DNA of 55,184 nucleotides from an uncultured Pelagibacteraceae bacterium (GTDB lineage Bacteria; Pseudomonadota; Alphaproteobacteria; Pelagibacterales; Pelagibacteraceae), in contig CACIPT010000005.1 of the NCBI GenBank assembly GCA_902588595.1, positions 1 through 55,184 of the forward strand, written 5' to 3'. Position 1 is the first letter of the stretch. Every line of letters starts with the position of its first letter. Of this stretch, positions 882 to 32,188 are shown piece by piece. The notes under the pieces are model-generated. The model saw only the letters and a program-made list of their open reading frames with translations. It ran no database searches and was not told the origin of the DNA. A program made the translations under genes and the position numbers.

Positions 882-2240
882 TTAACCTTTAACTACTTCT
901 CTAGTATTTGCGTTAAAAGATTCTTTAAACGGTATATCAACCACTACTGCATCAACAGGTTTTCCAGGAGTATCTGAATATTTAGCAGGTAAATGAACTT
1001 TGTATTTAGTTCCCACTTTACCTTTAGGAAAACCATTTGCATTTAAAGTTCCATCAAATGGGACATATCCCATTGCAATATTTTGTTTTTTTTCAGGATG
1101 AAACCAAGGAGAAGTTATAAAACCAACTGGATCTCCACCATCAGCATTTGAAATTAACCAAAAGTCCGGTGCGTATTCTTCAATTGGTTTTCCACCTAAT
1201 TCAAGACCAACTAATTGAAGTTTGTAAGGTTTCTTGCCTGCTTTAATTTCATCACGCATTTTTTCTAAAACGGCTTTACCAACATAATCTGTTTTTTTAT
1301 TCCATTCACCTTTACCAGATAAAGAAACTTGATAACCAAGATTACATTGAAAAGGATTATGTTCTGTGTCCATATCTTGACCCCAAGATAGAATTCCAGC
1401 TTGTATTCTTCTATGGTGAGCGGGAGCAATTACCATCAAATTATGTTTTTTTCCTGCTTCAAGAACAGCGTTCCACATATCTTCAGCATACAAAGTTGCG
1501 TTTCTTAAATATATTTCATAACCAGCTTCTCCAGAAAAACCAGATTGTGAAATAACACAACTTCTTCCAGCAACTTTAACTTCGGCTAGACCATAGAAAG
1601 GCATGTTGTTCAGATCAACTTGGTCACCTAATAAATCTTTCATTAAAGCTTTTGATTTAGGACCTTGAATTTGTACTGGGCAAGCGTCAATCTCTTCTAC
1701 TCTACAATCAAATCTTCCATCAGCATTAACTCCTTGTAGATACATACCAATATCAGAGTCTGAAAGTGAAAACCAAAATTCATCTTTTGAAATTCTAAGA
1801 AGAATTGGATCGTTTAAAACCCCACCATATTGATTACATAAAATTACATATCTTGCTCTCATAGGTGAAATTTTAGTAGCGTCTCTAGTTATTACGTAGT
1901 CAGTAAATTTTTCTGCATCTGGACCTTTAACTCTTATTTGTCTTTCAACAGCAACATTCCACATTGTTACATGATTAACAATTGCATCATACTCTACCAT
2001 TGCTCCACCATCTTCTGGTTTTACATAACCTCTTGGATGGTAAATTCGGTTATAAACTGTTGCTCTCCAACAACCAGCTTGCATTGATAAATGCCAATAA
2101 GGTGACTTTCTTACTCTTGTTGAAATTAACATTTCAACTTTTGTAGGGCCGCTTTGTCTTAAATTGTATGGAACTTCACGATCAGTTTGATCAACTGAAG
2201 TTACATGTTTTAGTTTAGTATAATCAAATTCATTAGACAT
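882..2240 (-). CDS. DmdA-related GcvT-family folate-dependent methyltransferase
   Basis: The 452-residue protein has the aminomethyltransferase (GcvT) fold: an MWNVAVERQ stretch at 93-101, GPDAEKF at 106-112, QIQGPKS at 190-196 and FSGEAGYEIYL at 235-245, then a C-terminal GcvT domain. Its opening resembles the DMSP demethylase DmdA, but it is longer (DmdA is about 370 residues), so I would not call it DmdA. Members of this family move a methyl or methylene group from a substrate to tetrahydrofolate in the cytoplasm. The MetF-like gene overlaps its start by 8 nt. Together the pair suggests substrate demethylation to 5-methyl-THF followed by oxidation. The substrate is unknown; a betaine or other methylated osmolyte is likely from context. 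Confidence 0.8.
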   Translation of the reverse strand: MSNEFDYTKLKHVTSVDQTDREVPYNLRQSGPTKVEMLISTRVRKSPYWHLSMQAGCWRATVYNRIYHPRGYVKPEDGGAMVEYDAIVNHVTMWNVAVERQIRVKGPDAEKFTDYVITRDATKISPMRARYVILCNQYGGVLNDPILLRISKDEFWFSLSDSDIGMYLQGVNADGRFDCRVEEIDACPVQIQGPKSKALMKDLLGDQVDLNNMPFYGLAEVKVAGRSCVISQSGFSGEAGYEIYLRNATLYAEDMWNAVLEAGKKHNLMVIAPAHHRRIQAGILSWGQDMDTEHNPFQCNLGYQVSLSGKGEWNKKTDYVGKAVLEKMRDEIKAGKKPYKLQLVGLELGGKPIEEYAPDFWLISNADGGDPVGFITSPWFHPEKKQNIAMGYVPFDGTLNANGFPKGKVGTKYKVHLPAKYSDTPGKPVDAVVVDIPFKESFNANTREVVKG

Positions 2241-3974: not shown

Positions 3975-4994
3975 TTAAAGACCAACTTTGATTTTTTTAG
4001 CCGCATCTGAAGATACCCATTTACTCCAAACATCTTCATGCTTTTTCAAAAATTCTATTGCTGCATCTGAACCTTTTGCTTGGTTATCTGCCATATACAC
4101 AAGCATTCCATTCATTACAGGGCCTGGGTAAGTACGTTTCTCAACATATGACAAAACATCTTTTCCTCCAGTTTTAGCAAAGTTTGCTGTAACAAGTGAA
4201 TTTACTTCTGACTCAATCCAAGAAGATGGTTTTGGATTTGCACATTCTTGTTCAGGCTTAACTATACATGTATTCCAATTTTCATCACCTCCATAGGGCA
4301 CACCAAAATCAACTGGTTGTAAATCATATTTTCCAACCATTGAAGTAGGGTTCCAATAGTAACCAAACCAAGGATCTCCTGAATCAGCAGCTTTAGAGAT
4401 AGAACCATCTAAACCTGCAGCAGAACCTGGATCAATTAATACCCAACCTTTTTTTTCCATTTCAAAAGCTTTGAATAGATTTGCATTAGCTAACTGACAT
4501 CCCCAACCTGCTGGACAACCCATGAAACCTCCTTTTGATGGATCTTCTTTATAAGGAAACCATTCTGGATGTTCCAAAATTTCAACAGCAGTCATATCTT
4601 TTATTTGTGGGTATTTTTTTATAGTTCCTGGAGTTATCCACCAACCTTCTCCGAGACCAGTAATTGGAGCTTTATTAGCTACAATTATTCTTTTTTCTGT
4701 CACTGCTTTTTTTAATGGTTCATATACAGCATTAGCCCATTGTTCTGGGTTCATGTCAGGTGTTCCTTTATCATTCATTGAAGTAAAAGTAGGCATAGTA
4801 GCACCTGGTACAAGTTCTACTTCACAACCATATCCTTTTTCTAAAATTATTTTATCTACATTGGCCATTAATTCAGCTGATGCCCAGTTTTGCTCTGCAA
4901 TAACTAATTTTCCGCATCCTGCGTTAGCTACACTAGTGAAAGCACCAAATAGAAATACTGACAATATAGAAAAAAATATCTTTCTTATTTTCAT
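3975..4994 (-). CDS. opuAC: Glycine betaine-type ABC transporter substrate-binding protein (OpuAC/ProX family)
   Basis: The 339-residue protein starts with a signal peptide (MKIRKIFF..., cleavage likely after SVANA near residue 25) and is then a periplasmic OpuAC-type binding protein. Many tryptophans (WW near residue 118, others near 145, 164 and 210) could form the aromatic box that binds trimethylammonium groups. The start has a strong ribosome site, AGAGG a few bases upstream. It sits between the DMG dehydrogenase and permease genes, so the likely ligand is glycine betaine or a related osmolyte; the exact ligand cannot be read from sequence. Confidence 0.88.
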   Translation of the reverse strand: MKIRKIFFSILSVFLFGAFTSVANAGCGKLVIAEQNWASAELMANVDKIILEKGYGCEVELVPGATMPTFTSMNDKGTPDMNPEQWANAVYEPLKKAVTEKRIIVANKAPITGLGEGWWITPGTIKKYPQIKDMTAVEILEHPEWFPYKEDPSKGGFMGCPAGWGCQLANANLFKAFEMEKKGWVLIDPGSAAGLDGSISKAADSGDPWFGYYWNPTSMVGKYDLQPVDFGVPYGGDENWNTCIVKPEQECANPKPSSWIESEVNSLVTANFAKTGGKDVLSYVEKRTYPGPVMNGMLVYMADNQAKGSDAAIEFLKKHEDVWSKWVSSDAAKKIKVGL

Positions 4995-5074: not shown

Positions 5075-7480
5075 TTATGATCTCATTTTTATTCCATTTG
5101 GGTCATAAAGAGGCTCTTTTATCACTGAACAATTATAAAAGTCTCCATTAATTTCCACTTGGAATTTTTCATTACTCTTTGAAATTTTTTTATCTAAATA
5201 AGAATAAGCAACACTTTTTTTCACATAATGAGCAAAACCACCAGAAGTAATGTAGCCAATACTTTTTCCATCTTTTACTACTGCTTCATTGTTTGTAACA
5301 TCGATATCATCTGTTTCGATAATTAAAGGAGTAAGTTTTAGTTTACTGTTATCTTTTTTTGCATTTTCTTTGCCAATAAAATCTTTATTCCAATCAATAA
5401 AAAAATCTAATCCAGATTCTTTTGCTGTAAAATCCGGTCTAAAATCTAATGTCCAAGCACCCCAATTTTTTTCTAATCTCATAGACATTAATGCTCTACT
5501 GCCAAAAGGTTTTAAATTAAATTCTTTACCAATAGCTTCTATTTCTTCATATAATTTTAGTTGAAAGTGAGGAGATACATATATTTCATAACCAAGTTCT
5601 CCAGTAAAAGAAATTCTATTTACAATAGCAGGGACTCCAGCAACAAACATTTCTTTAACATCCCTAAATTTAAAATTTTCATTTGAAATGTTTTCTCTAA
5701 CTAATTTTTGTAATAAATCTCTGGATTTTGGCCCAGAAAGAGCAAGACCATGAAAATCATCTGATCTGTTTTTGTAAACAACATCGAAATCTTTTAAGTG
5801 ATTTTCAAACCACCTTCTATGCATTTCTTGTACTGTACCAGAACCAAAAATTATAAATCGATTTTCATTAATACAAGCAACTGTCAGGTCTCCACAAAGT
5901 TTACCTTTTGGCGTTAACATTGGATTTAAACAAATTCTTCCAGGTTTTGGAATCCGACCTGCCAAAATATAATTTAAAAATTTTCTTGCATCAGGTCCTT
6001 GAAACTCGTGTTTAGAAAAGTTTGCAACTTCCATAACTCCTACATTTTCTCTAACATTTTTGACTTCTTTTAAAACATATTCGTGAGATCTAGATCTTTT
6101 TATAGTTGGTTCCTCATATGCATCTTCTGGACTATTTGCAAACCACAAAACACTTTCTAATCCAAAACTATCTCCCATAACTGCACCTTTAGAAATAAAA
6201 CGATCGTACAAAGCTGTAGTTTTTTGTTTTCTGCCTTTTGGTAAAGTTTCATTTGGAAAAGTCATTATGAATCTTCTTTCATAATTTTCTGAAGATTTTA
6301 TTGTTCCATAATGTGGAGAAGCATAATCTCCAAATCTTGCAACGTCCATCGCCCAAACATCAATTGAAGGTTCACCGTCTATAATCCATTCTGCTATACA
6401 TTTTCCAACACCGCCGCCTTGGCAAAATCCGGCCATTACACCAACAGCTACCCAGTAATTTTTCATACCAGGAATTGGACCTATTAAAGGACTTCCATCT
6501 GGACCGAAAGTAAAAGGACCATTAACAATGTTTTTTATTCCAGCTTTTTCTAAAGCTGGCATTCTTTCAAAACCGATAGCCAGTCTATCTTGTATATTGT
6601 CTAGTTTTGGTTCTAAAAGTTCATGACCAAAATTCATTGGTGTTCCTTCAACTTTCCAAGGAGTAGATTTTTGTTCATAAGTGCCAAGCAGCATTCCTTT
6701 CCCTTCTTGTCTAAAATAAATGTTGCCTTCAAAATCTGTTCCTATCGGCAATCTTTGATCTCCCATTGCCTCTATTTCTGGGATTGTTTCTGTAATTAAA
6801 TAATGATGTTCCATTGGTTGAACTGGCAAATTTAATCCAGCTAATTTACCAACTTCTCTAGCCCATAAACCTCCAGCATTGATAATTATTTCAGCATTAA
6901 TATTTCCTTTGTCTGTAATTACATCCCAGCTTCCATCTTTCTTTTGCTTAGTGTCTTTTACAGTTGTGTGAGTATAATATTTTCCACCATGAACTTTTGC
7001 TGCTTTAGCAAATGCATAAGTTACTCCTGATGGATCAACTTCACCATCGATCGGATCCCACAATGCTAATAAATATCTTTTTGGATCAATTAATGGATTT
7101 TTTTTTTTAACTTCTTCAAGAGAAATAAACTCTTGATCGAGACCCATATATCTTGCTTTTGATCTTTCTCTTTTTAAATAATCTGCCCAAACTTCATTAG
7201 AAGCTAAATAAAAACCTCCACTTGGTTTAAATCCAGTCGCGTGACCAGATTCTTCTTCGATTTCTTTATAAAGACCAATGGTATAAGCCATCATTCTTGA
7301 AATATTAGGATCTGAAGAAATGACATGAACATTACCAGCTGCATGCCAAGAAGAACCTGAAGTTAGTTCATTTCTTTCTAGAAGAATACAGTCTTTTAAG
7401 CCAAATTTGGAAAGATGATAAAGGATTGAGCAACCAACAACGCCACCGCCAATTATTACTACTTTGGCATTTTTCTCCAT
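5075..7480 (-). CDS. Dimethylglycine dehydrogenase-type FAD/folate oxidoreductase
   Basis: The protein is 801 residues. An N-terminal DAO fold (GGGVVGCSILYHL near 11-23) contains SSWHAAG near residue 46, whose His carries covalent FAD in mammalian DMGDH/SARDH. It is followed by a GcvT-type folate domain from about residue 420 to the end. The reaction is oxidative N-demethylation with transfer of C1 to THF and electrons to ETF. I place the start at ATG 7480, which shares its A with the BhmT stop (TGATG), not the preceding TTG. Directly after bhmT, whose product is dimethylglycine, the natural substrate is DMG. Sarcosine is possible. Confidence 0.85.
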   Translation of the reverse strand: MEKNAKVVIIGGGVVGCSILYHLSKFGLKDCILLERNELTSGSSWHAAGNVHVISSDPNISRMMAYTIGLYKEIEEESGHATGFKPSGGFYLASNEVWADYLKRERSKARYMGLDQEFISLEEVKKKNPLIDPKRYLLALWDPIDGEVDPSGVTYAFAKAAKVHGGKYYTHTTVKDTKQKKDGSWDVITDKGNINAEIIINAGGLWAREVGKLAGLNLPVQPMEHHYLITETIPEIEAMGDQRLPIGTDFEGNIYFRQEGKGMLLGTYEQKSTPWKVEGTPMNFGHELLEPKLDNIQDRLAIGFERMPALEKAGIKNIVNGPFTFGPDGSPLIGPIPGMKNYWVAVGVMAGFCQGGGVGKCIAEWIIDGEPSIDVWAMDVARFGDYASPHYGTIKSSENYERRFIMTFPNETLPKGRKQKTTALYDRFISKGAVMGDSFGLESVLWFANSPEDAYEEPTIKRSRSHEYVLKEVKNVRENVGVMEVANFSKHEFQGPDARKFLNYILAGRIPKPGRICLNPMLTPKGKLCGDLTVACINENRFIIFGSGTVQEMHRRWFENHLKDFDVVYKNRSDDFHGLALSGPKSRDLLQKLVRENISNENFKFRDVKEMFVAGVPAIVNRISFTGELGYEIYVSPHFQLKLYEEIEAIGKEFNLKPFGSRALMSMRLEKNWGAWTLDFRPDFTAKESGLDFFIDWNKDFIGKENAKKDNSKLKLTPLIIETDDIDVTNNEAVVKDGKSIGYITSGGFAHYVKKSVAYSYLDKKISKSNEKFQVEINGDFYNCSVIKEPLYDPNGIKMRS

Positions 7481-8526
7481 CAATATTTATCTTTCATGCT
7501 TGTATTTATCTCTAAAAATGACTTATCTTTTCCATGAAGCCAGTGTCTGCTCATATCCGGATAATATTTATATGAAATTGGTTTTCTACCAAGTGCAACT
7601 GCCATTTCTCTAACATGATGAGGCTCAGCTCCACAACAAATTCCTATAAAGTTTATTTTTTGTTTTTCACAGTCCTTTGCAAACTCAGCCATTTCGAATC
7701 TGTTGCAATATAGGTTATCTAATGCAACAGGAAATGCATTACCACCAGGAATACAATCACACTCATGATCAGTTTGATTTAAAAATCCTGGTTGTTCTTC
7801 TGTTGTTCTATAAGGAACTGGTAAAGCAGCAACATGACATGAGACTTTTTTCCTTATTTCAGGTAAAAGTTTCATAGTCATTTTTGGTCCTCTATAACAG
7901 TTTAAACCAACTACATCAGCACCAAGATCTTCCATAATTTTACAAGCTTCACCAGGTGTATGTCCTTCTCTGGTTTTGTCACCTTTTTTGATTGAAAAAT
8001 TAGTTACCGCAATCAATCCTTCGTCTTTAATCGCTTTAAGAGCAATTTTCATTTCCTCTGTCCAATTTATTGTTTCAGCAATTATAAAATCTACTCCTGC
8101 TTCCTTTGCCCAAGCAACCTGTTCCTCATACATTTTTTGACATTCAGAATGGCTTTTTTTGTTATTGGGATCATAAATATTAGTATTTGCAACGTCGCCA
8201 CAAACCAATAAGTTGAGATCTTTAAATTCATCTCTTGCATCTTTTGCAATCTGCAAAGCATTTTTTTGTAAAGGTTCTAATAGTTTTTCTTTACCGATTA
8301 AACGCAGTTTTTCTCTATGACCATAATAAGTAAATGCCTGAACAACATCTGAACCAGATCTTATAAATTCTCTATGTAATTGTGAAACTACTTCAGGATG
8401 TTCTAAAACAACTTCTGGAACAAACGCTCCCGCTGATAAATATCCTCTTCTTTCCATAGCAAAAAGATATCCTTCTGCACAAAGAATAGGTCCTTCATTA
8501 AGTCTTTCTATTAAATTTTTTCCCAT
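7480..8526 (-). CDS. bhmT: Betaine-homocysteine S-methyltransferase
   Basis: This 348-residue TIM-barrel zinc enzyme moves a methyl from glycine betaine to homocysteine, giving dimethylglycine and methionine. The three zinc cysteines are visible: C210 in GLNC and C297-C298 in GICCGAEP, with the spacing of BHMT. It is the first gene of the minus-strand betaine operon, and its stop overlaps the DMG dehydrogenase start by one base. I looked for a SAM riboswitch in its 5' region (8527-8600) and saw none. Other homocysteine methyltransferases share the fold, but the operon context favours betaine. Confidence 0.88.
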   Translation of the reverse strand: MGKNLIERLNEGPILCAEGYLFAMERRGYLSAGAFVPEVVLEHPEVVSQLHREFIRSGSDVVQAFTYYGHREKLRLIGKEKLLEPLQKNALQIAKDARDEFKDLNLLVCGDVANTNIYDPNNKKSHSECQKMYEEQVAWAKEAGVDFIIAETINWTEEMKIALKAIKDEGLIAVTNFSIKKGDKTREGHTPGEACKIMEDLGADVVGLNCYRGPKMTMKLLPEIRKKVSCHVAALPVPYRTTEEQPGFLNQTDHECDCIPGGNAFPVALDNLYCNRFEMAEFAKDCEKQKINFIGICCGAEPHHVREMAVALGRKPISYKYYPDMSRHWLHGKDKSFLEINTSMKDKY

Positions 8527-8615
8527 AAATTATTTCTTTTTTGAAAGATGTAACCATACTTTTAATAATTTTAAAATATAATTGTTAAGTTTAATATTTA
8601 TTGATAGCCTTAAGA

Positions 8616-9245
8616 ATGGCTGACAAAGACGTAAGCAAAAAGGTTCCTATTTATAAGTTAAAAACCACAGAAGAAATCATGAAATATTATGATGAGTGGG
8701 GAAAAAACAATAAGTACGATAAAGATATGGTTGAATGGGATTATACTGGCCCTAAAGAAACAGTAGAAGCATTTAAAAAGTACGCAAATAATAAAGAAAT
8801 AAAAATATATGATGCCGGATGTGGAACTGGACTAGTTGGTGTTGAGTTAAAAAATAGTGGCTACACTAATTTTGATGGAGTTGATTTATCTCAAAAATTA
8901 TTAGATCTAGTCCCTAAAGGCCTCTACAAAAATCTTTCAAAGGCTGATCTAAATAAATCACTAAATATCAAAGATAATGAATATGATGCAGTTTTGTGTG
9001 TTGGAACTTTTACTTTTGGACATGTTAAACCCCTAGCTCTAGATGAATTTATTAGAATTACAAAAAACAAAGGGTTATTATGTTTTACAATTAATGAAGG
9101 TATTTACGAAGAATATGGTTTTGATAAAAAAATTGAGGAATTAACGGAAAGTAATTTATGGAAAAAGAAAGAATTTTTCAAATCAAATTATATATCAAGC
9201 AAAAACGTAAATGCATGGTTGGGACTTTACGAAGTTATTAAATAA
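8616..9245 (+). CDS. Class I SAM-dependent methyltransferase
   Basis: The product is about 209 residues with the Rossmann motif I IYDAGCGTGLVG near residue 65, an acidic motif II (GVDLS) and a later YDAVLCVGTF strand, typical of class I methyltransferases. I prefer ATG 8616; a TTG five codons upstream (8601) is also in frame, and neither has a clear Shine-Dalgarno. It opens the plus-strand catabolic cluster, diverging from bhmT, and its stop overlaps the Rieske gene by one base (TAATG). The substrate is unknown; a small-molecule N-, O- or S-methyl transfer is plausible. Confidence 0.75.
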   Translation: MADKDVSKKVPIYKLKTTEEIMKYYDEWGKNNKYDKDMVEWDYTGPKETVEAFKKYANNKEIKIYDAGCGTGLVGVELKNSGYTNFDGVDLSQKLLDLVPKGLYKNLSKADLNKSLNIKDNEYDAVLCVGTFTFGHVKPLALDEFIRITKNKGLLCFTINEGIYEEYGFDKKIEELTESNLWKKKEFFKSNYISSKNVNAWLGLYEVIK

Positions 9246-10420
9246 TGTCAGAGATTTATAATATTATTGAAAAAAAAAAATTAGATATTGTTGGTAATTC
9301 AATAGAAGAATCTCATGGCTTACCAAACGAGTGTTACACAAGTGAAGTATACACAAAAATAGAGAGAAAAAAATTATTCGAAGATAAATGGGTTGTTGTT
9401 GGAATTGCAAGCGCCATACCAAAAATTGGAGACGCAAAACCTTTTGATTTACTTGGTATTCCACTGATTATTTTAAGAGATAAAAAAAATAAAATAAGAG
9501 TTTTTCATAATGTTTGTAGTCATAGAGGTTACAAACTTATACAAAAAAACTGTAAAATAAAAAATGTAATTAGATGTCCTTATCATTCTTGGTCTTATGA
9601 TACTGAAGGAAAATTAGTTGCAACCCCTCATCTTGGAGGTATGAATAAACATAATTCAGTAAAATTTAATAAATCAAAAAGTAATTTAAAAGAAATTAGA
9701 TCTAGCGTTTGGTTAGACTTAATTTTTGTAAATATAAGTAATAATGAAATTACATTTGATAAATACATAAAACCTTTAAGTGATCGATGGGAAAATTTTT
9801 GGCCAAAAAAAGATAGACAATTAATAGTTCATTCAGATGATTATGGATATTTTAATTTAAATGCAAAGTGCAATTGGAAGTTTGCTATAGAAAATTACTG
9901 TGAGAGCTATCATTTACCTTGGGTTCACCCTGGATTAAATTCTTATTCAAAAATTGAAGATCATTATCATATACAAGGTTTACCAAATCGTTTTGCTGGC
10001 CAAGGAACAACAGTTTATAATCCAAAGTTAAAAGGCAAAGAAAAATTTCCGTGTTTTCCTAATTGGCAAAAAGGTAAAGAACATATTGCTGAATATGTGG
10101 CTTTATTTCCAAATGTAATGTTGGGTATTCATAAAGATCATTTTTATTCTTATTGGTTGGAACCAATTGATCACAAATACACTAAAGAACACATGGAAAT
10201 ATATTATGTTGGTGAAAAAGCAGCTAATTCAAATAAATTTAAATCTTTAAGAAAACAGAATCATAAATTATGGAAAAGTGTTCAGTCCGAAGATGTTGGT
10301 ATAATAGAAGGTATGCAAGAAGGTCGAAATTCACCTTCTTATAATGGTGGAAATTTTTCACCAATTATGGATAATCCCACGCACCATTTTCATAAATGGG
10401 TAGCAACAAATTTGATATAA
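9245..10420 (+). CDS. Rieske non-heme iron oxygenase, alpha subunit
   Basis: The 391-residue protein carries a Rieske [2Fe-2S] motif (C91-x-H93 and C111-x2-H114) and a mononuclear iron site: E220, H223 and H228 in NYCESYHLPWVHPGL, with D350 in QSEDVGIIEG as likely third ligand. This architecture is shared by choline monooxygenase, glycine betaine demethylase (GbcA) and carnitine oxygenase (CntA), so a quaternary-amine substrate is possible, though aromatic-ring enzymes share it too. No reductase partner (GbcB/CntB-like) is evident nearby. It sits between a methyltransferase and a SET protein in a continuous operon. Confidence 0.85.
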   Translation: MSEIYNIIEKKKLDIVGNSIEESHGLPNECYTSEVYTKIERKKLFEDKWVVVGIASAIPKIGDAKPFDLLGIPLIILRDKKNKIRVFHNVCSHRGYKLIQKNCKIKNVIRCPYHSWSYDTEGKLVATPHLGGMNKHNSVKFNKSKSNLKEIRSSVWLDLIFVNISNNEITFDKYIKPLSDRWENFWPKKDRQLIVHSDDYGYFNLNAKCNWKFAIENYCESYHLPWVHPGLNSYSKIEDHYHIQGLPNRFAGQGTTVYNPKLKGKEKFPCFPNWQKGKEHIAEYVALFPNVMLGIHKDHFYSYWLEPIDHKYTKEHMEIYYVGEKAANSNKFKSLRKQNHKLWKSVQSEDVGIIEGMQEGRNSPSYNGGNFSPIMDNPTHHFHKWVATNLI

Positions 10421-10425
10421 AAAAA

Positions 10426-10854
10426 ATGTATAGACCTCTACCAGAATGCCTTACCATAAAAAAATCACCTATTGAAGGTCTTGGTATTTATGCAACTAGA
10501 GAAATTAAAGCAAATACTTTTTTAGGAATTACTCATATCTTAGATGAAAATTTTGAAAACAATTATATTAGAACTCCATTAGGAGGTTTTTATAATCATT
10601 CAAATAATCCAAATATTAAAAGAATGGTTTCAAATTTACTGCCCAAATTTAAATGTTGTGATGGAAAGCAAATTAAGGAAAAAGCAAAAGAATTAGACGT
10701 CAAAAAGTCTAGTAGAGATGATTTATATCCAGAAATTAATGCAAAGTATATGTATGTAGTTACTACTAGAGATATTAAATCAGGTGAAGAAATAACTGCA
10801 AATTATAATTTGTACACCTATCCTAAGACTGGAATAGGAATACAGATGCTTTAA
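10426..10854 (+). CDS. Small SET-domain protein
   Basis: The protein is about 142 residues and almost entirely a SET domain: GLGIYATREIKA near residue 20, GGFYNHSNNPN near 50 (the NHS/N motif that binds SAM), a long insert, and GEEITANYN with the catalytic-type Tyr near 125. SET domains transfer methyl groups to protein lysines. ATG 10426, 5 nt after the Rieske stop, is my preferred start; ATG 10396 would overlap the Rieske gene by 25 nt. A SET protein inside a metabolic operon is unusual. It may methylate a cluster enzyme or act outside the pathway. Confidence 0.7.
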   Translation: MYRPLPECLTIKKSPIEGLGIYATREIKANTFLGITHILDENFENNYIRTPLGGFYNHSNNPNIKRMVSNLLPKFKCCDGKQIKEKAKELDVKKSSRDDLYPEINAKYMYVVTTRDIKSGEEITANYNLYTYPKTGIGIQML

Positions 10855-10858
10855 TTTA

Positions 10859-12094
10859 ATGAAATTCGATAGAAAAATTATTCCAGATACAAAATCAAAA
10901 CAAAATTTCATAACAAAAAAAAGATTAAGAGAAGACGAGATTAATTTTGAGAAACTTAGATCTTATAGATTGGATAGAGTTAAAAAAGAATTAGAAAAAA
11001 ACAATTTAGAAGCATGTATATTATTTGATCCTGTTAATGTCAGATATGCTTTAGACACTACAAATATGAGTGTTTATCATATGCATAATCTTACCAGATA
11101 TTGCTTTGTACCAGTTAATGGACCAGTAATTTTATATGAATATTTTAACTGCGAAGGACTATCTAGCCATTTAAATTTAATAGATGAAATAAGACCAGCA
11201 ATAAGTTGGGATTATTTTAGTAATGGTGACCAAGCAAGTGTACAATTAAAAAAATGGGTTAATGAGATTGAAGATTTATCAAATTCTTATTTTAAAACTA
11301 AAAAAGTAGCAATTGATGTTATTAATGGTCCAGCAGTAACAGCTTTAAACAAAGCAGATATTAAAGTAGTAGATGCAAAATTAATTCTTGAACAAGCAAG
11401 AGTTATAAAATCTTCTGAAGAATTAAAATGCATGAAGGCAGCAGTAGAAGTTGCTGAAATTGGAGTTGCTAAAATGCGTAATGAATTAAAAGCTGGTATG
11501 ACCGAAGATGAACTTTGGTCAATTTTACACAAAACAAATATTGAACATGGTGGTGAATGGATTGAGTGCAGAATACTTTCATCTGGTGAAAGAACAAATC
11601 CATGGATGCAAGAAAGTAGCAATAAAGTTATTCAAAGAGGTGAAATAGTATCTTTTGATACTGATATGGTTGGACCGTATGGATATTGTGCGGATATATC
11701 AAGAGCATTTGTAGAGGGAAATAAATTTAGCAATGATCAAAAAAAATTATACCAAATGGGAGTTGAACATATCGATCACAATTCTCGATTAATTAAACCA
11801 GGAATGTCTTTTAAAGAGTTTACTGAAAAATCTTGGAAACTTCCTGAGGAGTATTATGGAAACAGATATCCATGTATGGTTCATGGAATTGGCCTTTGCG
11901 ATGAGTGGCCACTGATAAAATACCCAACGGATGGAGGTCAAAGAGAAGGTTTTTTTGAAAAAAATATGACTATCACAGTTGAAACCTATATTGGGAAAGT
12001 AGGCGGCAAAGAAGGAATAAAACTTGAACAACAATATTTGGTTGGTAAAAATAACCTTGAACTTATGTCCCATCATCCTTTAGAACATCTATAA
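10859..12094 (+). CDS. dddP: DddP-like M24-family protein (candidate DMSP lyase)
   Basis: The 411-residue protein has a creatinase-type N-domain and an M24 pita-bread domain. From memory it aligns with DddP at length: LFDPVNVRYALDTTNM near 55, GGEWIECRILSSG near 231, NPWMQE near 247 and HGIGLCDEW near 342. Six acid/His metal ligands are present: D267, D269, D279, H342, E375 and E390, with nearly the spacing of the di-metal site in Roseobacter DddP. DddP cleaves DMSP to DMS and acrylate. An AcuI-type acryloyl-CoA reductase is encoded at 31184. Other M24 hydrolases, such as Xaa-Pro peptidases or creatinase, are the alternative; substrate remains unproven. Confidence 0.7.
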   Translation: MKFDRKIIPDTKSKQNFITKKRLREDEINFEKLRSYRLDRVKKELEKNNLEACILFDPVNVRYALDTTNMSVYHMHNLTRYCFVPVNGPVILYEYFNCEGLSSHLNLIDEIRPAISWDYFSNGDQASVQLKKWVNEIEDLSNSYFKTKKVAIDVINGPAVTALNKADIKVVDAKLILEQARVIKSSEELKCMKAAVEVAEIGVAKMRNELKAGMTEDELWSILHKTNIEHGGEWIECRILSSGERTNPWMQESSNKVIQRGEIVSFDTDMVGPYGYCADISRAFVEGNKFSNDQKKLYQMGVEHIDHNSRLIKPGMSFKEFTEKSWKLPEEYYGNRYPCMVHGIGLCDEWPLIKYPTDGGQREGFFEKNMTITVETYIGKVGGKEGIKLEQQYLVGKNNLELMSHHPLEHL

Positions 12095-12501
12095 TGAAAA
12101 TAATTTTAATAATGGGCTTACCTGGAGCAGGCAAAACAACTTTAGCAAATGAGCTAGCTAAACTAATAAAGTCAAAAAGATTAAATGCAGACGAGATTAG
12201 AAAAGCTGCTAATGATTGGGACTTTTCTGAAGAAGGTAGAAAAAGACAATCAAAAAGAATGGCAGAAGTTGCACTTAAAATGAAAAATGAAGACAATAAT
12301 GTAATTGCTGATTTTATTTGTCCAACACCTGAAGCAAGGAGTTTATTTCCAGCAGATTATATCGTCTGGGTTGATACTATAAAAGCAGGAAGATTTGAAG
12401 ACACCAACCAAATGTTTGTAAAACCTGAAAAATTTAATTTTCATGTAACAACTCAAGATGCTAAGATGTGGGCATCTAAAATAGCTGAGGATTTAAAATA
12501 A
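12094..12501 (+). CDS. APS-kinase-like P-loop small-molecule kinase
   Basis: The product is 135 residues with a Walker A motif GLPGAGKTT (8-16), an NADEIRK stretch near 30 and an ADFICPTPEAR stretch near 70. These match the adenylylsulfate kinase / gluconokinase-like P-loop group, but it is shorter than CysC (about 200). The start ATG shares a base with the previous stop, and its own stop overlaps the next start. Being paired with an HxGH nucleotidyltransferase, it may phosphorylate a small substrate for nucleotidyl activation (inference). A true sulfate-assimilation role is doubtful, since cysND/cysH-type genes are absent here. Confidence 0.65.
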   Translation: MKIILIMGLPGAGKTTLANELAKLIKSKRLNADEIRKAANDWDFSEEGRKRQSKRMAEVALKMKNEDNNVIADFICPTPEARSLFPADYIVWVDTIKAGRFEDTNQMFVKPEKFNFHVTTQDAKMWASKIAEDLK

Positions 12502-12875
12502 TGTCTTATAAATGGGATAATAAAAAACCAACAGCTCAAATGCTAGGTAGATGGCAACCATTTCATGATGGTCATTATGCTTTATTTGAAGAAATAATTA
12601 AAAAAACTGGACAAGTTTGTATTCAGATAAGAGATGTTCAAGGAGTAGATGATAATCCTTTTGATTTTGAAACAGTAAAGAAAAAAATAGAAGAAAGATT
12701 AAATCCAAAATACGAAGGCAGATTTAAAATTATTCTTGTTCCAAATATAACTAACATTTGTTACGGAAGAGGGGTTGGTTATAAAATAGAAGAGATAGTT
12801 ATGCCTGAAGAAATACAAAAAATTTCAGCAACAAAAATTAGAGCAAAAATGCGAGAGGATGGAGATTTGAAGTGA
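12501..12875 (+). CDS. HxGH nucleotidyltransferase-like protein
   Basis: This is a 124-residue minimal nucleotidyltransferase-superfamily protein. It has GRWQPFHDGH with H22-x2-H25 for NTP binding and a C-terminal ISATKIRAKM motif (108-117), the equivalent of ISST(x)IR. Such enzymes transfer AMP or CMP to a phosphate or sulfate group (NadM, TagD, PPAT and ATP sulfurylase are relatives). It overlaps the kinase by one base and the next oxygenase by 4 nt (GTGA), so the three are probably co-translated. The substrate is unknown. Confidence 0.7.
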   Translation: MSYKWDNKKPTAQMLGRWQPFHDGHYALFEEIIKKTGQVCIQIRDVQGVDDNPFDFETVKKKIEERLNPKYEGRFKIILVPNITNICYGRGVGYKIEEIVMPEEIQKISATKIRAKMREDGDLK

Positions 12876-13723
12876 ACGAAAGACTTAAGTCGATAGTAGA
12901 TTTAAAAAAATATCCAATTTACGACTTAAACTCTCCATCAATTAAAAATTTAATAAATAAATGTAAAGAAGAGTTAGATCAATTTAGTTGCTCTACAATT
13001 CCTAATTTTATTTTACCAAAATCATTAGAGATAATGAATTTAGAATTAGAAAAACAACTAGATGAAGTTTATATGTCTAAAGAAAGTATAAATCCTTATT
13101 TATATGCTGAAGATGATCCAAAGTTAGCAAAAGATCACCCAAAAAGAACTTTCATGAATAGATATAATGGATATTTAAATTCAGATTGTTTTCCAAAGAA
13201 TTCTGAAATGAAATATCTTTATGAAACAGATGAACTTTTAAAGTTTGTGTCAGCATGCTTAGGAGTTTCTCCAATTTATAGATGGGCAGATCCTTTGGCA
13301 TGTCATGCTTATAATGTTATGGAGCCAGAAGGTATACTTCCTTGGCATTTTGATAGCTGTGAATTCACTTTAAGTTTAATGATTCAAAAACCTGAAAAAG
13401 GCGGAGTATTTGAATATTGTCCAAATATAAGAGAGCCTGGTAATGAAAATTTTGATGAAGTTAAAAAAGTTTTAAATGGTGACAGAGCAAGAGTTAAACA
13501 ATTAAAATTAGAACCAGGCGATCTACAAATATTTAAAGGCAGATTTACTTTACACAGAGTAACAAAAATAGAAGGTCAAAAATCAAGATATATGTGTATA
13601 CCAGCCTATGTCTTAGACCCTTGGAGAGTAAACACTCCAGAGCATTCAAAAGCAATTTATGGCAAAGTATTACCAATTCATTTAGAAAGAAACAAAGCTA
13701 GAGCTGATGGCCTAGCTGACTAA
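12872..13723 (+). CDS. Fe(II)/2-oxoglutarate oxygenase, BesD/HalD-like, copy 1
   Basis: The 283-residue protein shows the facial triad H159-x-D161 (PWHFD) and H228 (LHRVT), with R239 placed to hold 2-oxoglutarate. The surrounding pattern (GGVFEY, NENFDEV, PGDLQIFKGR) resembles the family that contains the amino-acid halogenase BesD. Halogenases there have Gly in place of the Asp; here Asp is present, so hydroxylation is expected. Translation starts at GTG 12872, overlapping the upstream stop by 4 nt. A paralogue lies 227 nt downstream. The substrate is unknown; a free amino acid or small amine is plausible. Confidence 0.78.
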   Translation: MNERLKSIVDLKKYPIYDLNSPSIKNLINKCKEELDQFSCSTIPNFILPKSLEIMNLELEKQLDEVYMSKESINPYLYAEDDPKLAKDHPKRTFMNRYNGYLNSDCFPKNSEMKYLYETDELLKFVSACLGVSPIYRWADPLACHAYNVMEPEGILPWHFDSCEFTLSLMIQKPEKGGVFEYCPNIREPGNENFDEVKKVLNGDRARVKQLKLEPGDLQIFKGRFTLHRVTKIEGQKSRYMCIPAYVLDPWRVNTPEHSKAIYGKVLPIHLERNKARADGLAD

Positions 13724-13950
13724 ATTTATTGCTGACTATTCTCAAAACTGTTATTATACGTCATGAATTTGAATCTGGTATCGCACCACAATAGACTTAC
13801 AAGAGTTGGTTTTGGAGAGAAAATTACTAAAAAAATGTCAAATTTATTATTGAAAAAAATTGATTGCAAAAATCATATTAAGTCAATTACTCCCTCGACA
13901 TCTATTTAATTAAACAAATTAATTATTCTAACAATTAAGAAAGGATAAAT

Positions 13951-14796
13951 GTGCTTGATATAAAAGAGATAATAAATTTAGAACAGTACCCAATAAATGA
14001 TAGTGGGTCCTTAAGTTATAAAGATTTAATTAATTATACTAGAAAACAACTTAATGAAGATGGTTGTTGTGTTCTTTCTAATTTTATTAGACCTGATTCA
14101 ATTAAAAGGATGAAGTATGAAGTAGATAGAAACCTAAGAAAAATTTATTTTACATCTGATAAACATAATCCTTATTTTACAAAAGAAGACAAAACTCTTA
14201 ATGAAAATCATCCAAAAAGAATATTTACTGTTAGGCAAAGTGGATATTTAAATTCAGATGATTTAGAAAAAGATTCTGATCTAAATAAATTTTATGATTT
14301 AGAAGAGATGTTAAAATTTGTATCAGATAGTCTTGAAGTTTTCCCTCTTTACAAGTGGGCAGATCCTTTGGGAAAAAATCCATATAGCGTTATGCATACA
14401 GACCATTATTTTCCTTGGCACTTTGATGGAAATGATTTTACCTTAAGTGTTTTAATTCAAAAGGCGGAAAAAGGAGGACTTTTTGAATATGTGCCAGATA
14501 TAAGAAGTAAAGATAATGAAAACTTTGATGAAGTTGCCAAAGTTTTAAAAGATGATCGAACAAGAGTTAAATCTCTAGATTTAAAGCCAGGAGATTTACA
14601 GATTTTTAAAGGAAGGTTTTCAATGCATAGAGTTACAAAGATAGAAGGAAAAACTTCAAGATACATTGCTTTACCTTGTTATGTAAAAGATCCTTTAAAA
14701 ATTAATAAACCTGAACATTCTAAACAAGTTTACGGAAAAGCCTTGCCAATTCATTTTAAAAGAGAGAATATTCAAGGAGACGGATTAACAGACTGA
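13951..14796 (+). CDS. Fe(II)/2-oxoglutarate oxygenase, BesD/HalD-like, copy 2
   Basis: This 281-residue paralogue of the gene at 12872 appears about half identical by eye. The triad H157-x-D159 and H226 and the 2OG arginine R237 are kept, so it should be an active oxygenase. It begins at GTG 13951 with an AAGGA ribosome site a few bases upstream. Its stop TGA overlaps the ATG of the aldolase by one base. Copies diverge most near residues 1-40, 65-120 and around 140-160 near the HxD motif, which suggests different substrates or successive oxidations rather than a recent duplication. Confidence 0.78.
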   Translation: MLDIKEIINLEQYPINDSGSLSYKDLINYTRKQLNEDGCCVLSNFIRPDSIKRMKYEVDRNLRKIYFTSDKHNPYFTKEDKTLNENHPKRIFTVRQSGYLNSDDLEKDSDLNKFYDLEEMLKFVSDSLEVFPLYKWADPLGKNPYSVMHTDHYFPWHFDGNDFTLSVLIQKAEKGGLFEYVPDIRSKDNENFDEVAKVLKDDRTRVKSLDLKPGDLQIFKGRFSMHRVTKIEGKTSRYIALPCYVKDPLKINKPEHSKQVYGKALPIHFKRENIQGDGLTD

Positions 14797-15527
14797 TGAA
14801 AAAAAATATTAATGAAGCTGAGTGGAAAGTACGAGTAGATCTTGCTGCAATGTTTAGATTGACTCACATGATGGGTTGGGATGATACAGTTTGGAATCAC
14901 ATAACGGCAAGGACTCCAGGTACAGATCATACTTTTTTTATGCATCAATTTGGACTTTTGTACGAAGAAGTTAAAGCATCAAATCTAATCAAAGTTGATG
15001 AACATGGAAAAGTTTTGGAAGGTCCAGAAGACGTTAATACAGCAGGTTTTATAATTCATAGTGCAGTACATTTAAACCATCCAAAAAATAAATTTGTTTT
15101 TCATGCTCATCCTCCAAAAGCATTAGCTGCTACAGCTTTAAAAGATGGGATACCTTATATTGTGCAAGATTCATCCATGCTTTATGGAAAAGTTGGTTAC
15201 CATAATTGGGAAGGTTTATCAGTAGATAAAGATGAAAGATTTAGAATTGCAGAAAATCTTGGAGAAAATAAAGTTTTAATTATGAGAAATCATGGGCTAT
15301 TAACAGTTGGAGAAACTGCAGGAGAGTCTTTCATGAATATGTATTATGCTGTAAGAATGTGCGAAGTTGCAGTACAAGCCCAAGGTTCAGGATTAAAATT
15401 AGAAACAGCAGCAAAATCTTTGTGGGAAAAATCACAAAAACAATACGATGCATTTTCACCAGGCCCCAATGAATGGCCAGCATTATTAAGAAAATGTGAT
15501 GCAGTAGATCCAAGTTATAAAGAATAG
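14796..15527 (+). CDS. Class II aldolase/adducin-family protein
   Basis: The 243-residue protein has the zinc ligands of the AraD/FucA fold: H103 and H105 in HAHPP and H166 in RNHGLL. Class II aldolases cleave or epimerise sugar phosphates or hydroxy-acids through a metal enediolate. Some members instead decarboxylate or have unknown roles. It lacks an evident phosphate-binding signature that would name a substrate. It lies between the second oxygenase and a hydroxyacyl-type dehydrogenase, consistent with breaking a C-C bond next to a newly made hydroxyl group (inference). Confidence 0.75.
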   Translation: MKKNINEAEWKVRVDLAAMFRLTHMMGWDDTVWNHITARTPGTDHTFFMHQFGLLYEEVKASNLIKVDEHGKVLEGPEDVNTAGFIIHSAVHLNHPKNKFVFHAHPPKALAATALKDGIPYIVQDSSMLYGKVGYHNWEGLSVDKDERFRIAENLGENKVLIMRNHGLLTVGETAGESFMNMYYAVRMCEVAVQAQGSGLKLETAAKSLWEKSQKQYDAFSPGPNEWPALLRKCDAVDPSYKE

Positions 15528-15528
15528 A

Positions 15529-16476
15529 ATGACAAGTAATATTAAAAATGTTGCTGTCATAGGTACCGGGGTTATAGGATCAGGTTGGATTATTAGGTGT
15601 TTAGCACACAATAAAAAAGTTGTTGCCTTTGACAAGGATCTAAAATTAAAGAAAAGATTAGTTGCTGAGATAAAACGTACTTGGCCATATGTAAAAAAAT
15701 TATTTAATAAAAAAAAACTAAATCTTAAAAATTTTACATACGTTACTTCTATAGAAGAAGTTTTAAAGAAAGCTGAATTCATTCAAGAATGTGCAACAGA
15801 AAGCTATAGAATAAAAACTAAGTTAATGAGCATTATCGGCAAATACGCAAAACCAAACGCTATTATTTCATCAAGCTCATCTGGTTTACTTCCAACGAGA
15901 ATATATTCAAAATGTAAAAATCCAGCGCGTACAATGATTGGCCATCCTTTTAATCCTGTTTATATGTGTCCTGGTGTTGAAATTGTTCCAGGAAAAAAAA
16001 CAAAAAAGAAATTTTTAAATAAAGCTAATAAATTTTATAAATCAATATCAATGAACCCAATAATGGTTAAAAAAGAATTACCTGGGTATTTAGCAGATAG
16101 ACTTCAAGAAGCTTTGTGGAGAGAAGCATTACACATTGTAAATGAAGGCTATGCATCTACTAAAGATTTAGATAGATCAATTGAAGATGGACCTGGTTTA
16201 AGGTGGTCATTGATGGGAATATTTTTAACTTATCATTTAGCTGGAGGTAAGGCTGGCATGAAACATATGTTAGAACAATTTGGACCTGCTTTAAAATTGC
16301 CATGGACTAAATTAAAAGCTCCAAAATTAACTAAAAAATTATCATCCAGAGTTATTGCAGGAACTAGGCAACAAGCTAAAGGAAAATCTGTAGCGATGAT
16401 ATCAAATATTAGAGACGAATATTTAGTCAATCTTCAAAAGCTAAGAAAAAAATACGAAAATAAAATTAGAAAATGA
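15529..16476 (+). CDS. 3-hydroxyacyl-CoA dehydrogenase-family NAD oxidoreductase
   Basis: The 315-residue protein has an N-terminal Rossmann fold with GTGVIGSGW (12-20), an SSSSG stretch near 115 and GHPFNPVY (138-145) containing the catalytic His. The length and GHPFNPVY pattern fit the group containing L-carnitine 3-dehydrogenase, L-gulonate dehydrogenase and lambda-crystallin, rather than the longer fatty-acid FadB type. It would oxidise a 3-hydroxy group to a ketone with NAD. Carnitine is one candidate given the CntA-like Rieske protein upstream, but nothing in the sequence proves it. Confidence 0.75.
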   Translation: MTSNIKNVAVIGTGVIGSGWIIRCLAHNKKVVAFDKDLKLKKRLVAEIKRTWPYVKKLFNKKKLNLKNFTYVTSIEEVLKKAEFIQECATESYRIKTKLMSIIGKYAKPNAIISSSSSGLLPTRIYSKCKNPARTMIGHPFNPVYMCPGVEIVPGKKTKKKFLNKANKFYKSISMNPIMVKKELPGYLADRLQEALWREALHIVNEGYASTKDLDRSIEDGPGLRWSLMGIFLTYHLAGGKAGMKHMLEQFGPALKLPWTKLKAPKLTKKLSSRVIAGTRQQAKGKSVAMISNIRDEYLVNLQKLRKKYENKIRK

Positions 16477-18908: not shown

Positions 18909-19682
18909 ATGAATGTTTTAGTAAAAAATTTAGGCAATGGGATAAAAAATGTAAAAATTAACGACCCAAAAAGTTATAATTCTTTATCTCTTGCAACTTT
19001 AAAAGCTCTTTTAAATGCTTTTAAAAAGCTTGATAAAGATAAATTTACTAAAGTGATAATTTTAGAAGGTGTTGGAAAAGGTTTTAGCGCTGGTCACAAC
19101 TTAAAAGAAGTAAGAAATTTAAAGAAAAGATCTAAATATCTTAAATTATTTAATCTTTGCTCAAAGTTAATGATTCAAATAGTTGAAGGAAGAAAACCAG
19201 TAATAGCTAAAGTACATGGAGCAGCATATGCTGCTGGATGTCAATTAGTTGCAAGTTGTGATTTAGCTTACAGTACAAATGATGCAATGTTTGCTACTCC
19301 TGGAGTTAATATTGGACTTTTTTGTAGCACTCCAATGGTTGCAGTAAGTAGAAAAGTAAACAGAAAAAGAATGATGAAAATGCTTTTAACAGGAGAACCT
19401 ATAAAAGCTAACTACGCAAAAGAAATAGGTTTAATTAATGATTATTATTCAAAAGCAAAATTAAATAGCGAAGTTTTAAAAACTGCAAAAACTATTGCAT
19501 CAAAATCAAATTTAACAATTAAAATTGGAAAACAAGCTTTCTACAAACAATTAGAAATGCCCTTAAGAAAAGCTTACGCTTACACAAGTAAAATGATGAC
19601 ATTAAACATGATGGCAATGGATGCTAAAGAAGGAATATCTGCATTTTTAGAAAAAAGAAAACCAAAATGGAAAAACAAATGA
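18909..19682 (+). CDS. Enoyl-CoA hydratase/isomerase-family protein, ECHDC3-like
   Basis: The 257-residue crotonase-fold protein shows FSAGHNLKE near 58 (oxyanion hole 1) and HGAAYAAGCQLVASCDLA near 103 (oxyanion hole 2), then a FATPGVNIGLFC block near 130. This pattern is closest to the ECHDC3 group, whose reaction is not well defined. It does not obviously have both catalytic glutamates of a standard hydratase. It ends the catabolic run. If the DddP-like enzyme makes acrylate, hydration of acryloyl-CoA would be one use, but that is speculative. Confidence 0.75.
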   Translation: MNVLVKNLGNGIKNVKINDPKSYNSLSLATLKALLNAFKKLDKDKFTKVIILEGVGKGFSAGHNLKEVRNLKKRSKYLKLFNLCSKLMIQIVEGRKPVIAKVHGAAYAAGCQLVASCDLAYSTNDAMFATPGVNIGLFCSTPMVAVSRKVNRKRMMKMLLTGEPIKANYAKEIGLINDYYSKAKLNSEVLKTAKTIASKSNLTIKIGKQAFYKQLEMPLRKAYAYTSKMMTLNMMAMDAKEGISAFLEKRKPKWKNK

Positions 19683-20146
19683 GTGATGATCAAATAAAAG
19701 ATATTCTTAAAAATTCAAAAACAATTGCAATGGTTGGTGTAAGTTCAGAAAAAAAGGGCGAAGACCCAAAGAATTTGAAAAGAAAACCTGCCAATGTAGT
19801 TATGAAATATATGCAAGATTTTGGCTACAGAGTAATACCAGTTAATCCATTTGCTGAAGGAGAGATAATAAATGGAGAAAAAGTTATTGGAAGCTTAGAA
19901 AAAATTTCTGAATCAATTGATATTGTTGATATATTTCGACCTTCGAAAGAAACCCCTGGCATTGCAAATGAAGCAGTTAAAATTGGAAGTAAAGTACTAT
20001 GGTTACAATATGGAATTCAAAACGAAGAAGCTGAAAAAATTGCTGAAAATTCTAACATTCAGTATGTTTCAAACAAATGTATAAAACAGGAGTATCAGAG
20101 ATTATTTCAAAAGGCCAATCCAGTATTTCCAGTACTAAAAAATTAG
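19679..20146 (+). CDS. CoA-binding (YccU-like) protein
   Basis: The protein is about 155 residues with a Rossmann CoA-binding domain: TIAMVGVSSEKKG near 14, GYRVIPVNP near 53 and VDIFRPS near 85. I choose ATG 19679, a classic ATGA overlap with the crotonase stop, over the ATG four codons earlier. Family members resemble the CoA-binding domain of succinyl-CoA synthetase, and their role is poorly defined. It could be part of the upstream cluster by translational coupling. Confidence 0.8.
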   Translation: MSDDQIKDILKNSKTIAMVGVSSEKKGEDPKNLKRKPANVVMKYMQDFGYRVIPVNPFAEGEIINGEKVIGSLEKISESIDIVDIFRPSKETPGIANEAVKIGSKVLWLQYGIQNEEAEKIAENSNIQYVSNKCIKQEYQRLFQKANPVFPVLKN

Positions 20147-31163: not shown

Positions 31164-31183
31164 ATCTAATATAAATAAAATTG

Positions 31184-32188
31184 ATGTCAGAAAAATTTAA
31201 AGCACTTGTAATTAATCAAGAAGGTGAAAACTTTACTAGAGAAGTAAAATCTGTAGAAAAAACTTTTTTAAAACATGGTGACGTTTTAGTTAAAGTTGAT
31301 TATTCAGGATTGAATTTTAAAGATGCATTAATATTAAAAAATGGAGCAAGATTAGTAAAAGAATTTCCTCATATACCAGGTATAGATTTTTCAGGCAAAG
31401 TTGAAGAAAGTCAAAATGATAAATTTAAACCAGGCGATGAAATAATATTAACAGGATGGAGAGTAGGAGAAATTTTTTATGGTGGCTATTCTCAGTATGC
31501 AAAAGTTAATGGAGGTTTTTTAGTAAAAAAACCAAAAGAGCTAACATCAAAACAAGCAATGATTTTGGGTACAGCTGGACTTACAGCATTATCATGTTCT
31601 TTCACAACAAAAACTGCAAAAGAAGAACTTTTTCTTGGTCAAAAAGTTGAAAATGTAATTGTAACTGGTGCATCAGGAGGTGTTGGAAGCATTGCTGTTA
31701 TGATTTTAAATAAACTTGGATGCAATGTAACTGCTGTTACTGGAAAAGAAAGTAATAAAGAATATTTAAAATCAATAGGTGCAAAAAATATAATAAATAC
31801 TAGCGAATTAATGAAAGAACCAAGACCTTTAGATAAAGGCTTGTGGGATGGTGCTGTTGATACAGTAGGTGGTCAAATATTAGCAAATGTATTAGCTCAA
31901 ACAAAAGAATCTGGAATTGTTGCAGCATGTGGAAATGCCGCTGATATAAAATTAAATACAACTGTAATGCCTTTTATTATAAGAGGAGTAAAACTTTGGG
32001 GGATTAACTCAGTGAACACATCCATAGGAAGAAGACAATTCTTATGGAACGAAGCGGCAAAATTAATTGATTTCAATTTACTAAGTCAATCAATTAAGGA
32101 GATTGATTTAGATGGTCTATTAGAAGTTTATCCAAAGATGCTTAAAGGTGAAACATCGGGTAGATATATAGTAGATTTAAATAAATAA
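31184..32188 (+). CDS. acuI: AcuI/YhdH-type NADPH-dependent acryloyl-CoA reductase
   Basis: The 334-residue MDR-family protein shows DYSGLNFKDALILKNG near 45, FPHIPGIDFSGKV near 67, GWRVGEIFYGGYSQ near 93 and VTGASGGVGSIAVMIL near 161, all typical of YhdH/AcuI. AcuI reduces toxic acryloyl-CoA to propionyl-CoA during DMSP breakdown; E. coli YhdH does the same. I choose ATG 31184 over the preceding TTG. Its stop shares a base with the LysR start. It may pair functionally with the DddP-like protein at 10859, although they are 19 kb apart. Confidence 0.82.
   Translation: MSEKFKALVINQEGENFTREVKSVEKTFLKHGDVLVKVDYSGLNFKDALILKNGARLVKEFPHIPGIDFSGKVEESQNDKFKPGDEIILTGWRVGEIFYGGYSQYAKVNGGFLVKKPKELTSKQAMILGTAGLTALSCSFTTKTAKEELFLGQKVENVIVTGASGGVGSIAVMILNKLGCNVTAVTGKESNKEYLKSIGAKNIINTSELMKEPRPLDKGLWDGAVDTVGGQILANVLAQTKESGIVAACGNAADIKLNTTVMPFIIRGVKLWGINSVNTSIGRRQFLWNEAAKLIDFNLLSQSIKEIDLDGLLEVYPKMLKGETSGRYIVDLNK

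Follow-up and report, generated by a model that had tools for sequence, protein, structure and literature searches.

The best described relatives of the protein studied here are the crystallised Roseobacter DMSP lyases RlDddP (4RZY) and RdDddP (4B28). In the DddP mechanism, the substrate is bound through its carboxylate to a metal and through its sulphur to a Trp and a Tyr, an Asp abstracts the α proton and the C–S bond is cleaved; the two His residues of the M24 peptidases are replaced by Asp and Phe (PMC5395565). The metal ligands of RlDddP are Asp295, Asp297, Asp307, His371, Glu406 and Glu421, and Tyr366 and Asp377 are its two candidate catalytic residues (PMC4108388). Pelagibacterales have been listed among DddP carriers found with an HMM at E 1e-30 (PMC8520302) and SAR11 among ddd carriers in general (PMC13360808), so that the existence of SAR11 homologues of DddP was already on record. 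In the open-licence literature searched, we found no description of this SAR11 clade or operon, and on betaine operons with M24 genes only general background.

The window, by which we mean the whole stretch of DNA analysed, is 55,184 nucleotides long. Its DddP-like gene is a forward-strand open reading frame of 411 codons for amino acids, with an ATG start and no internal stop, and lies among the following genes.

882..2240, minus strand: GcvT-family protein nearest to the DMSP demethylase DmdA (best PDB match 3TFH)
3975..4994, minus strand: substrate-binding protein, sole PDB match 7YLE
5075..7483, minus strand: dimethylglycine/sarcosine dehydrogenase-like (DMGDH-like) FAD + GcvT protein, below every equivalog cut-off
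7480..8526, minus strand: BHMT-type homocysteine methyltransferase ('BHMT-II', a label of this analysis), the second copy in the genome
8601..9245, plus strand: SAM methyltransferase-like protein
9245..10420, plus strand: Rieske oxygenase alpha subunit, nearest solved structure carnitine monooxygenase
10396..10854, plus strand: small SET-domain protein, variably present, overlapping the end of the Rieske gene
10859..12094, plus strand: DddP-family M24 metalloenzyme with ligands D267, D269, D279, H342, E375 and E390, and with Y337 and D348
12094..12501, plus strand: small APS-kinase-like P-loop protein, its start overlapping the stop of the DddP-like gene
12501..12875, plus strand: cytidylyltransferase-like protein, Pfam match slightly under the cut-off
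12872..13723, plus strand: HalD-family homologue (Pfam PF23169)
13951..14796, plus strand: second HalD-family homologue
14796..15527, plus strand: class II aldolase family protein, exceeding the PRK07044 subfamily cut-off
15529..16476, plus strand: 3-hydroxyacyl-CoA / L-carnitine dehydrogenase-like protein (353 bits, cut-off 414)
31181..32188, plus strand: AcuI/YhdH-family acrylyl-CoA reductase, outside the operon, 19 kb downstream

The DmdA-related protein scores 229 bits, below the 410-bit cut-off of the DmdA equivalog. The reductase at 31181–32188 is below the AcuI equivalog (344 bits, cut-off 440) and above the TIGR02823 subfamily cut-off (408 bits, cut-off 297). Among the 35 SAR11 loci with full flanks, 11 have a match to the SET-domain gene and 27 have at least one HalD-family gene near the DddP-like gene. 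The APS-kinase-like and cytidylyltransferase-like genes abut in the window (at 12501) and are separated in other SAR11 genomes by an insertion of ∼2.3–4.6 kb (L105, 11643–13960, with a 752-residue ORF; L104, ∼6835–11356; L117, ∼11643–16232); the site between them is a variable spot inside the operon.

In a phmmer search of the PDB with the DddP-like protein, the four sequences of RlDddP and RdDddP matched at E values from 1.9e-80 to 3.4e-79, and the next M24 structure, 2zsg, at E 1.4e-18. The original prediction had named six DddP metal ligands, and alignment bears this out; Asp267, Asp269, Asp279, His342, Glu375 and Glu390 align, in that order, with the six RlDddP ligands, and the spacings it gave (2, 10, 63, 33 and 15, against 2, 10, 64, 35 and 15 in RlDddP) are correct. 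Tyr337 and Asp348 align with Tyr366 and Asp377 of RlDddP, so that both candidate catalytic residues are kept. Alignment to 2zsg shows His at neither of the M24 peptidase His positions, which are occupied by Asp348, as in DddP, and by Met250, where DddP has Phe.

An AlphaFold2 model (22-row alignment, mean pLDDT 82.9, pTM 0.82) has RdDddP and RlDddP as its best structural matches, with TM 0.87–0.88 on the query and an rmsd of 2.1; prolidases follow at TM 0.62–0.72. Family match and model comparison together show the M24 'pita-bread' fold with a DddP-type N-domain. Chance resemblance to DddP is rejected by the PDB E values and by the TM scores to DddP structures, and generic prolidase identity by the wide lead of those structures in both comparisons. 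Six near-invariant DddP positions are changed (Ala103 to Tyr81, Trp115 to Tyr93, Phe140 to Asp118, Phe155 to Trp133, Trp95 to Tyr73 and Phe278 to Met250), and several N-domain positions match the majority state of family members that are not DddP.

The ligand set itself is nearly invariant in the family. Five of the six ligands are identical in all 150 aligned members, the equivalent of Asp297 is lost in three and that of Tyr366 in two. The set thus marks the family and not the substrate, rhizobial paralogues included, and we rejected it as a criterion for DMSP lyase activity. The Asp377 equivalent is lost in 23 of the 150, none of which belongs to the DddP, SAR11, AG-337-type or rhizobial-type group, and has been replaced by Gly (19), Asn (2) or Val (2); judging from the alignment these members, which include L209, L263, L264, L266, L267, L270, L272, L273, L193, L276, L278, L281 and L288–L294, probably carry out a different reaction.

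Against the NCBIfam DddP equivalog NF043017 the window protein scores 351 bits, below the cut-off of 600. A quick tree of 150 rows contains a 28-row DddP clade (SH-aLRT 99). Both crystallised DddPs belong to it, as do all 12 genome rows that exceed the cut-off and the sister-family DddP described below; L230, at 520 bits, is just outside it. The window protein groups with SAR11 and AG-337-type alphaproteobacteria (SH-aLRT 100), and that group is sister to one containing Rhizobium and Paraburkholderia (SH-aLRT 91), a relation absent from the careful trees built from 69 of the 150 rows. In the careful tree, which has no outgroup and therefore does not place the family root, and whose rows do not extend to the fungal DddPs or Oceanimonas DddP2, a 21-row clade that surrounds the crystallised DddPs excludes the window protein with support of 99/90. 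This clade comprises 14 rows that are above the cut-off, crystallised or annotated as DddP, and seven at 495–592 bits. The SAR11 and AG-337-type rows are together at 100/100.

By AU tests on groups defined after inspection of the first tree, the data are compatible both with a clade uniting the SAR11 and AG-337-type rows with DddP (p 0.25) and with one uniting them with the rhizobial group (p 0.20). The tree comparison proposed with the original prediction puts the protein outside the clade of crystallised DddPs and leaves a joint clade with DddP standing. That prediction had allowed for either a DMSP lyase or a DddP relative acting on some other substrate; the separate clade and the score of 351 bits count against the first, although the AU test is compatible with a sister position. 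On these trees the window protein is possibly a sister of DddP, with the deep order unsettled.

The 80 best-scoring of at least 587 relatives in named genomes include 64 from SAR11, labelled Pelagibacteraceae or Ca. Pelagibacter, all from single-cell or metagenome-assembled genomes, and it is on these that our assignment of the host to SAR11 is based. We also compared the window's own genome with 100 related genomes, many of them incomplete (the own genome is 64% complete); G001–G060 and the own genome (61) were assigned to the genus, and the following 40 genomes to a sister family. The DddP-like gene is carried by 20 genomes of the genus, at 77–100% identity, and a homologue at 37–38% identity by 15 of the 101 that belong to another family of the order. 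Of 385 genomes sampled from the class, 78 have a relative at E up to 1e-40 and 12 exceed the DddP equivalog cut-off.

The original prediction described the operon as non-DMSP-looking, a view that the surrounding genes do not support. The substrate-binding protein matches 7YLE at E 4e-49, and we take 7YLE to be RnDmpX because all eight pocket residues of PMC10030565 are present at their published numbers. That DMSP pocket consists of Trp35, Thr64, Trp84, Glu113, Trp152, Ala153, Tyr200 and Trp202, and mutation of Tyr200 abolished binding (PMC10030565). Seven of the eight, Tyr200 included, are kept in the putative binder of the window, and Ala153 is replaced by Gly. The DmpX-like, DmdA-related, BHMT- and DMGDH-like genes all lie 2–10 kb upstream on the opposite strand, and an AcuI-family gene lies downstream. 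A sister-family DddP, the one scored among the 15 homologues, reaches 788 bits, above the 600-bit cut-off, and adjoins (L040, 5564–11093) BHMT (80–81%) and DMGDH (79–80%) genes of the same type as those of the window. Its other flank carries genes resembling those for gamma-butyrobetaine dioxygenase, carnitine dehydrogenase and keto-acid cleavage, all of which score under the respective equivalog cut-offs. At E 1e-60, no Rieske match is present in any of the 15 sister-family carriers.

The neighbourhood of the SAR11 gene is conserved. Its Rieske protein has carnitine monooxygenase as nearest solved relative (E 8e-31); no reductase for it was recognised among the scanned neighbours in the window. 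More than 7 kb of upstream DNA is available at 47 of the 64 SAR11 loci, and a same-strand Rieske gene lies within 7 kb in all 47; at 34 of the 64 it is no more than 700 bp from the DddP-like gene. Two types of locus occur, one as in the window and one in which a divergent GcvT protein is followed by the Rieske, DddP-like and HalD-family genes, with BHMT not adjoining. Within the genus, BHMT-II is present in 17 of 20 carriers of the DddP-like gene against 1 of 41 other genomes (Fisher p 4e-11) and the Rieske gene in 20 of 20 against 14 of 41 (p 2e-7), p values that, like those for DddK/DddQ below, ignore shared ancestry. In the three carriers without BHMT-II (G030, G042 and G053), the DddP-like gene sits on a short contig or close to where a contig ends.

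The own genome holds two BHMT paralogues, 47% identical, at 7480–8526 of the window and at G000:C19 5659–6669. BHMT genes of the island type (≥79%) occur mostly in carriers of the DddP family, with G038, G062, G069, G085 and G099 as exceptions; those of the other type (47–52%) are found in SAR11 genomes with and without the DddP-like gene. One BHMT copy (G004:C4 101472–102512) has a single internal TAA and is either a broken gene or an assembly error.

Since both peptidase His residues are absent (Asp348, Met250), peptidase activity is unlikely, and elimination from an onium carboxylate is the best reading of the active site. The enzyme would be a SAR11 member of the M24 DddP branch, presumably a homodimer with two metals, that has lost the peptidase His residues and kept the DddP catalytic pair. 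Its metals would bind a small zwitterionic onium osmolyte through the carboxylate, Asp348 together with Tyr337 would take the α proton, and the onium group would leave by β-elimination, as happens when DddP acts on DMSP. The setting would be a SAR11 osmolyte island with a DmpX/glycine-betaine-type importer, the second BHMT, the DMGDH- and DmdA-like proteins and the CntA-like Rieske oxygenase, neighbours that may act in one pathway. A metal-dependent lyase of this kind, acting on DMSP or a betaine analogue and forming a clade distinct from DddP proper, is the most likely reading, to which we give about even odds. It is favoured by the conserved ligands and catalytic pair, the model match to DddP, the DmpX-type pocket, the GcvT protein whose best match is DmdA, the Rieske gene at every testable SAR11 locus, the frequent BHMT-II, and the shared BHMT/DMGDH neighbours of the sister-family DddP. 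Against it stand the low equivalog score, the exclusion from the DddP clade, the six changed positions and soil relatives that adjoin a Rieske matching a stachydrine demethylase structure, a hint of nitrogen betaines. The DmpX-like protein favours DMSP, the obvious marine substrate, whereas the Rieske protein, the second BHMT and the non-DddP N-domain positions favour a nitrogen analogue; as to the main substrate, we lean slightly towards DMSP or DMSOP over a nitrogen betaine.

As one form of such a lyase, the protein may replace DddK or DddQ as the physiological enzyme that cleaves DMSP (or DMSOP) in these SAR11 strains, a possibility that we hold tentatively and with somewhat less than even confidence. 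All catalytic residues are kept, the window adds DmdA-like and AcuI-family genes to the DmpX-like protein, and the divergence is no bar by itself, since FgDddP shares just 32% identity with RdDddP and was reported to be active in E. coli (PMC4108388). DddK is found in 6 of the 101 genomes and PF16867 (DddQ-type) above cut-off in 5, making 10 genomes together, none of which carries the DddP-like gene or a sister-family DddP. This exclusion has the expected direction but does not reach significance (Fisher p 0.16 for the genus and 0.28 for the sister family), and with an own genome so incomplete we rejected it as proof of lyase function. The AcuI-family gene lies outside the operon, the clade is separate, and the Rieske partner so constant in SAR11 is within 6.3 kb at only 1 of 19 DddP-clade loci.

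The other form, less probable in our view and held as a doubtful candidate, is an enzyme for a nitrogen betaine (for example beta-alanine betaine or a carnitine-type or hydroxyproline-type compound) that works with the Rieske oxygenase and BHMT-II and not on DMSP. It draws on the carnitine monooxygenase-like Rieske, on the N-domain positions and on relatives elsewhere. Plasmid records with a relative number 180, of which 153 are Rhizobium or Sinorhizobium; we opened 11 such regions, nine of them annotated. Three, on Rhizobium and Paraburkholderia plasmids (L187, L190 and L191), have contiguous Rieske, reductase and M24 genes, L189 has a Rieske gene on the opposite strand 2.7 kb away, and the unannotated L192 has a Rieske match 0.85 kb upstream; in the annotated regions L184, L185, L186, L188 and L194 no Rieske gene adjoins the M24 gene. 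The L190 Rieske matches 4QUP at E 3e-101 and 3VCA, which we take to be the stachydrine demethylase Stc2, at E 5e-101, and its operon adjoins a hydroxyproline epimerase and a betaine/proline transporter. BHMT and Rieske genes are near in 3 of 10 AG-337-type loci (L165, L166 and L172). At L165, and at L215 as judged from its likeness to L165, genes for BHMT, a DAO-family oxidase, a DHDPS-family protein and an aldehyde dehydrogenase are divergent from the DddP-like gene, and at L165 the Rieske gene follows this set.

The gene content of these loci points to a pattern of betaine catabolism in the relatives, and the Rieske link is not general. Outside SAR11, counting loci with at least 5 kb on either side, a Rieske gene lies within 6.3 kb at 3 of 9 AG-337-type, 5 of 13 rhizobial-type and 8 of 63 other loci, in addition to the single DddP-clade case, and we rejected a family-wide link on this sparse distribution. 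Other points against a nitrogen-betaine substrate are the lack of an obvious chemical step on proline betaine for this fold, the presence of Rieske genes in 14 congeneric genomes that lack the DddP-like gene, the absence of the BHMT/oxidase set from AG-337-type loci L169, L171 and L173, and a rhizobial sister relation confined to the quick tree. In its most specific form the proposal is rather unlikely: a branch of the DddP fold confined to SAR11 would cleave a quaternary ammonium osmolyte instead of DMSP, in a pathway shared with the CntA-like Rieske and the second BHMT. On the L191 Rhizobium plasmid, the DddP-like M24 gene (9875–11155) is 8 kb from a gene annotated 'dimethylsulfoniopropionate lyase' (19178–19768), with formaldehyde and ETF genes between them.

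That the protein is a plain M24 hydrolase, acting on Xaa-Pro dipeptides or amides and merely resembling DddP, is very improbable: the M24 fold, the hydroxyproline-type genes near some relatives and the name 'Xaa-Pro peptidase family protein', given to every named match but one (annotated as DddP) among the 60 plasmid matches listed, are set against Asp348 and Met250 at both peptidase His positions, the additional sixth ligand Asp269, the retained Asp/Tyr pair and a DddP match some 60 orders of magnitude better than any prolidase.

Returning to the proposed lyase of an onium osmolyte, its substrate matters for how dddP genes are counted. At least 40% identity to one or both of two DddP-clade proteins, one above the cut-off and one annotated as DddP and so DddPs by sequence only, is reached by 109 of the 122 family members outside the 28-row clade, and at least 40% identity to the crystallised Roseobacter DddPs by 38 of the 122. 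From these comparisons, published counting rules would not reliably separate the SAR11 group from true DddP. If the protein is a DMSP lyase, 20 of ∼61 sampled genomes of the SAR11 genus gain a route to DMS; if it is a betaine enzyme, marine surveys are counting as DMS-producing dddP a large betaine-enzyme family, including that of one of the most abundant bacteria in the ocean. We conclude that to call the carriers of the SAR11 protein DMS producers is not yet justified. What is new here is the separate clade, its constant Rieske and frequent BHMT partners, and the failure of common counting thresholds to split the groups.

Compared with known systems, the window protein shares with RlDddP and RdDddP the fold, the six ligands, the catalytic Asp and Tyr and the lack of the peptidase His residues, but it is only 35–36% identical to them and differs in score, clade and six positions as described. 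It is closer in sequence (43.9% identity) to an Oceanisphaera sp. IT1-181 plasmid protein annotated as DddP, used here as a proxy for DddP2 of Oceanimonas doudoroffii, although the proxy is inside the DddP clade and the window protein outside. The M24 proteins of the Rhizobium and Paraburkholderia Rieske operons have 42–44% identity to it, the same catalytic set and a Rieske partner; those operons include a reductase, and the one Rieske examined is of the stachydrine demethylase type, whereas the SAR11 Rieske is nearest to carnitine monooxygenase. DddK and the DddQ-type proteins, from the same bacterial order and with the same reaction proposed, belong to the unrelated cupin family.
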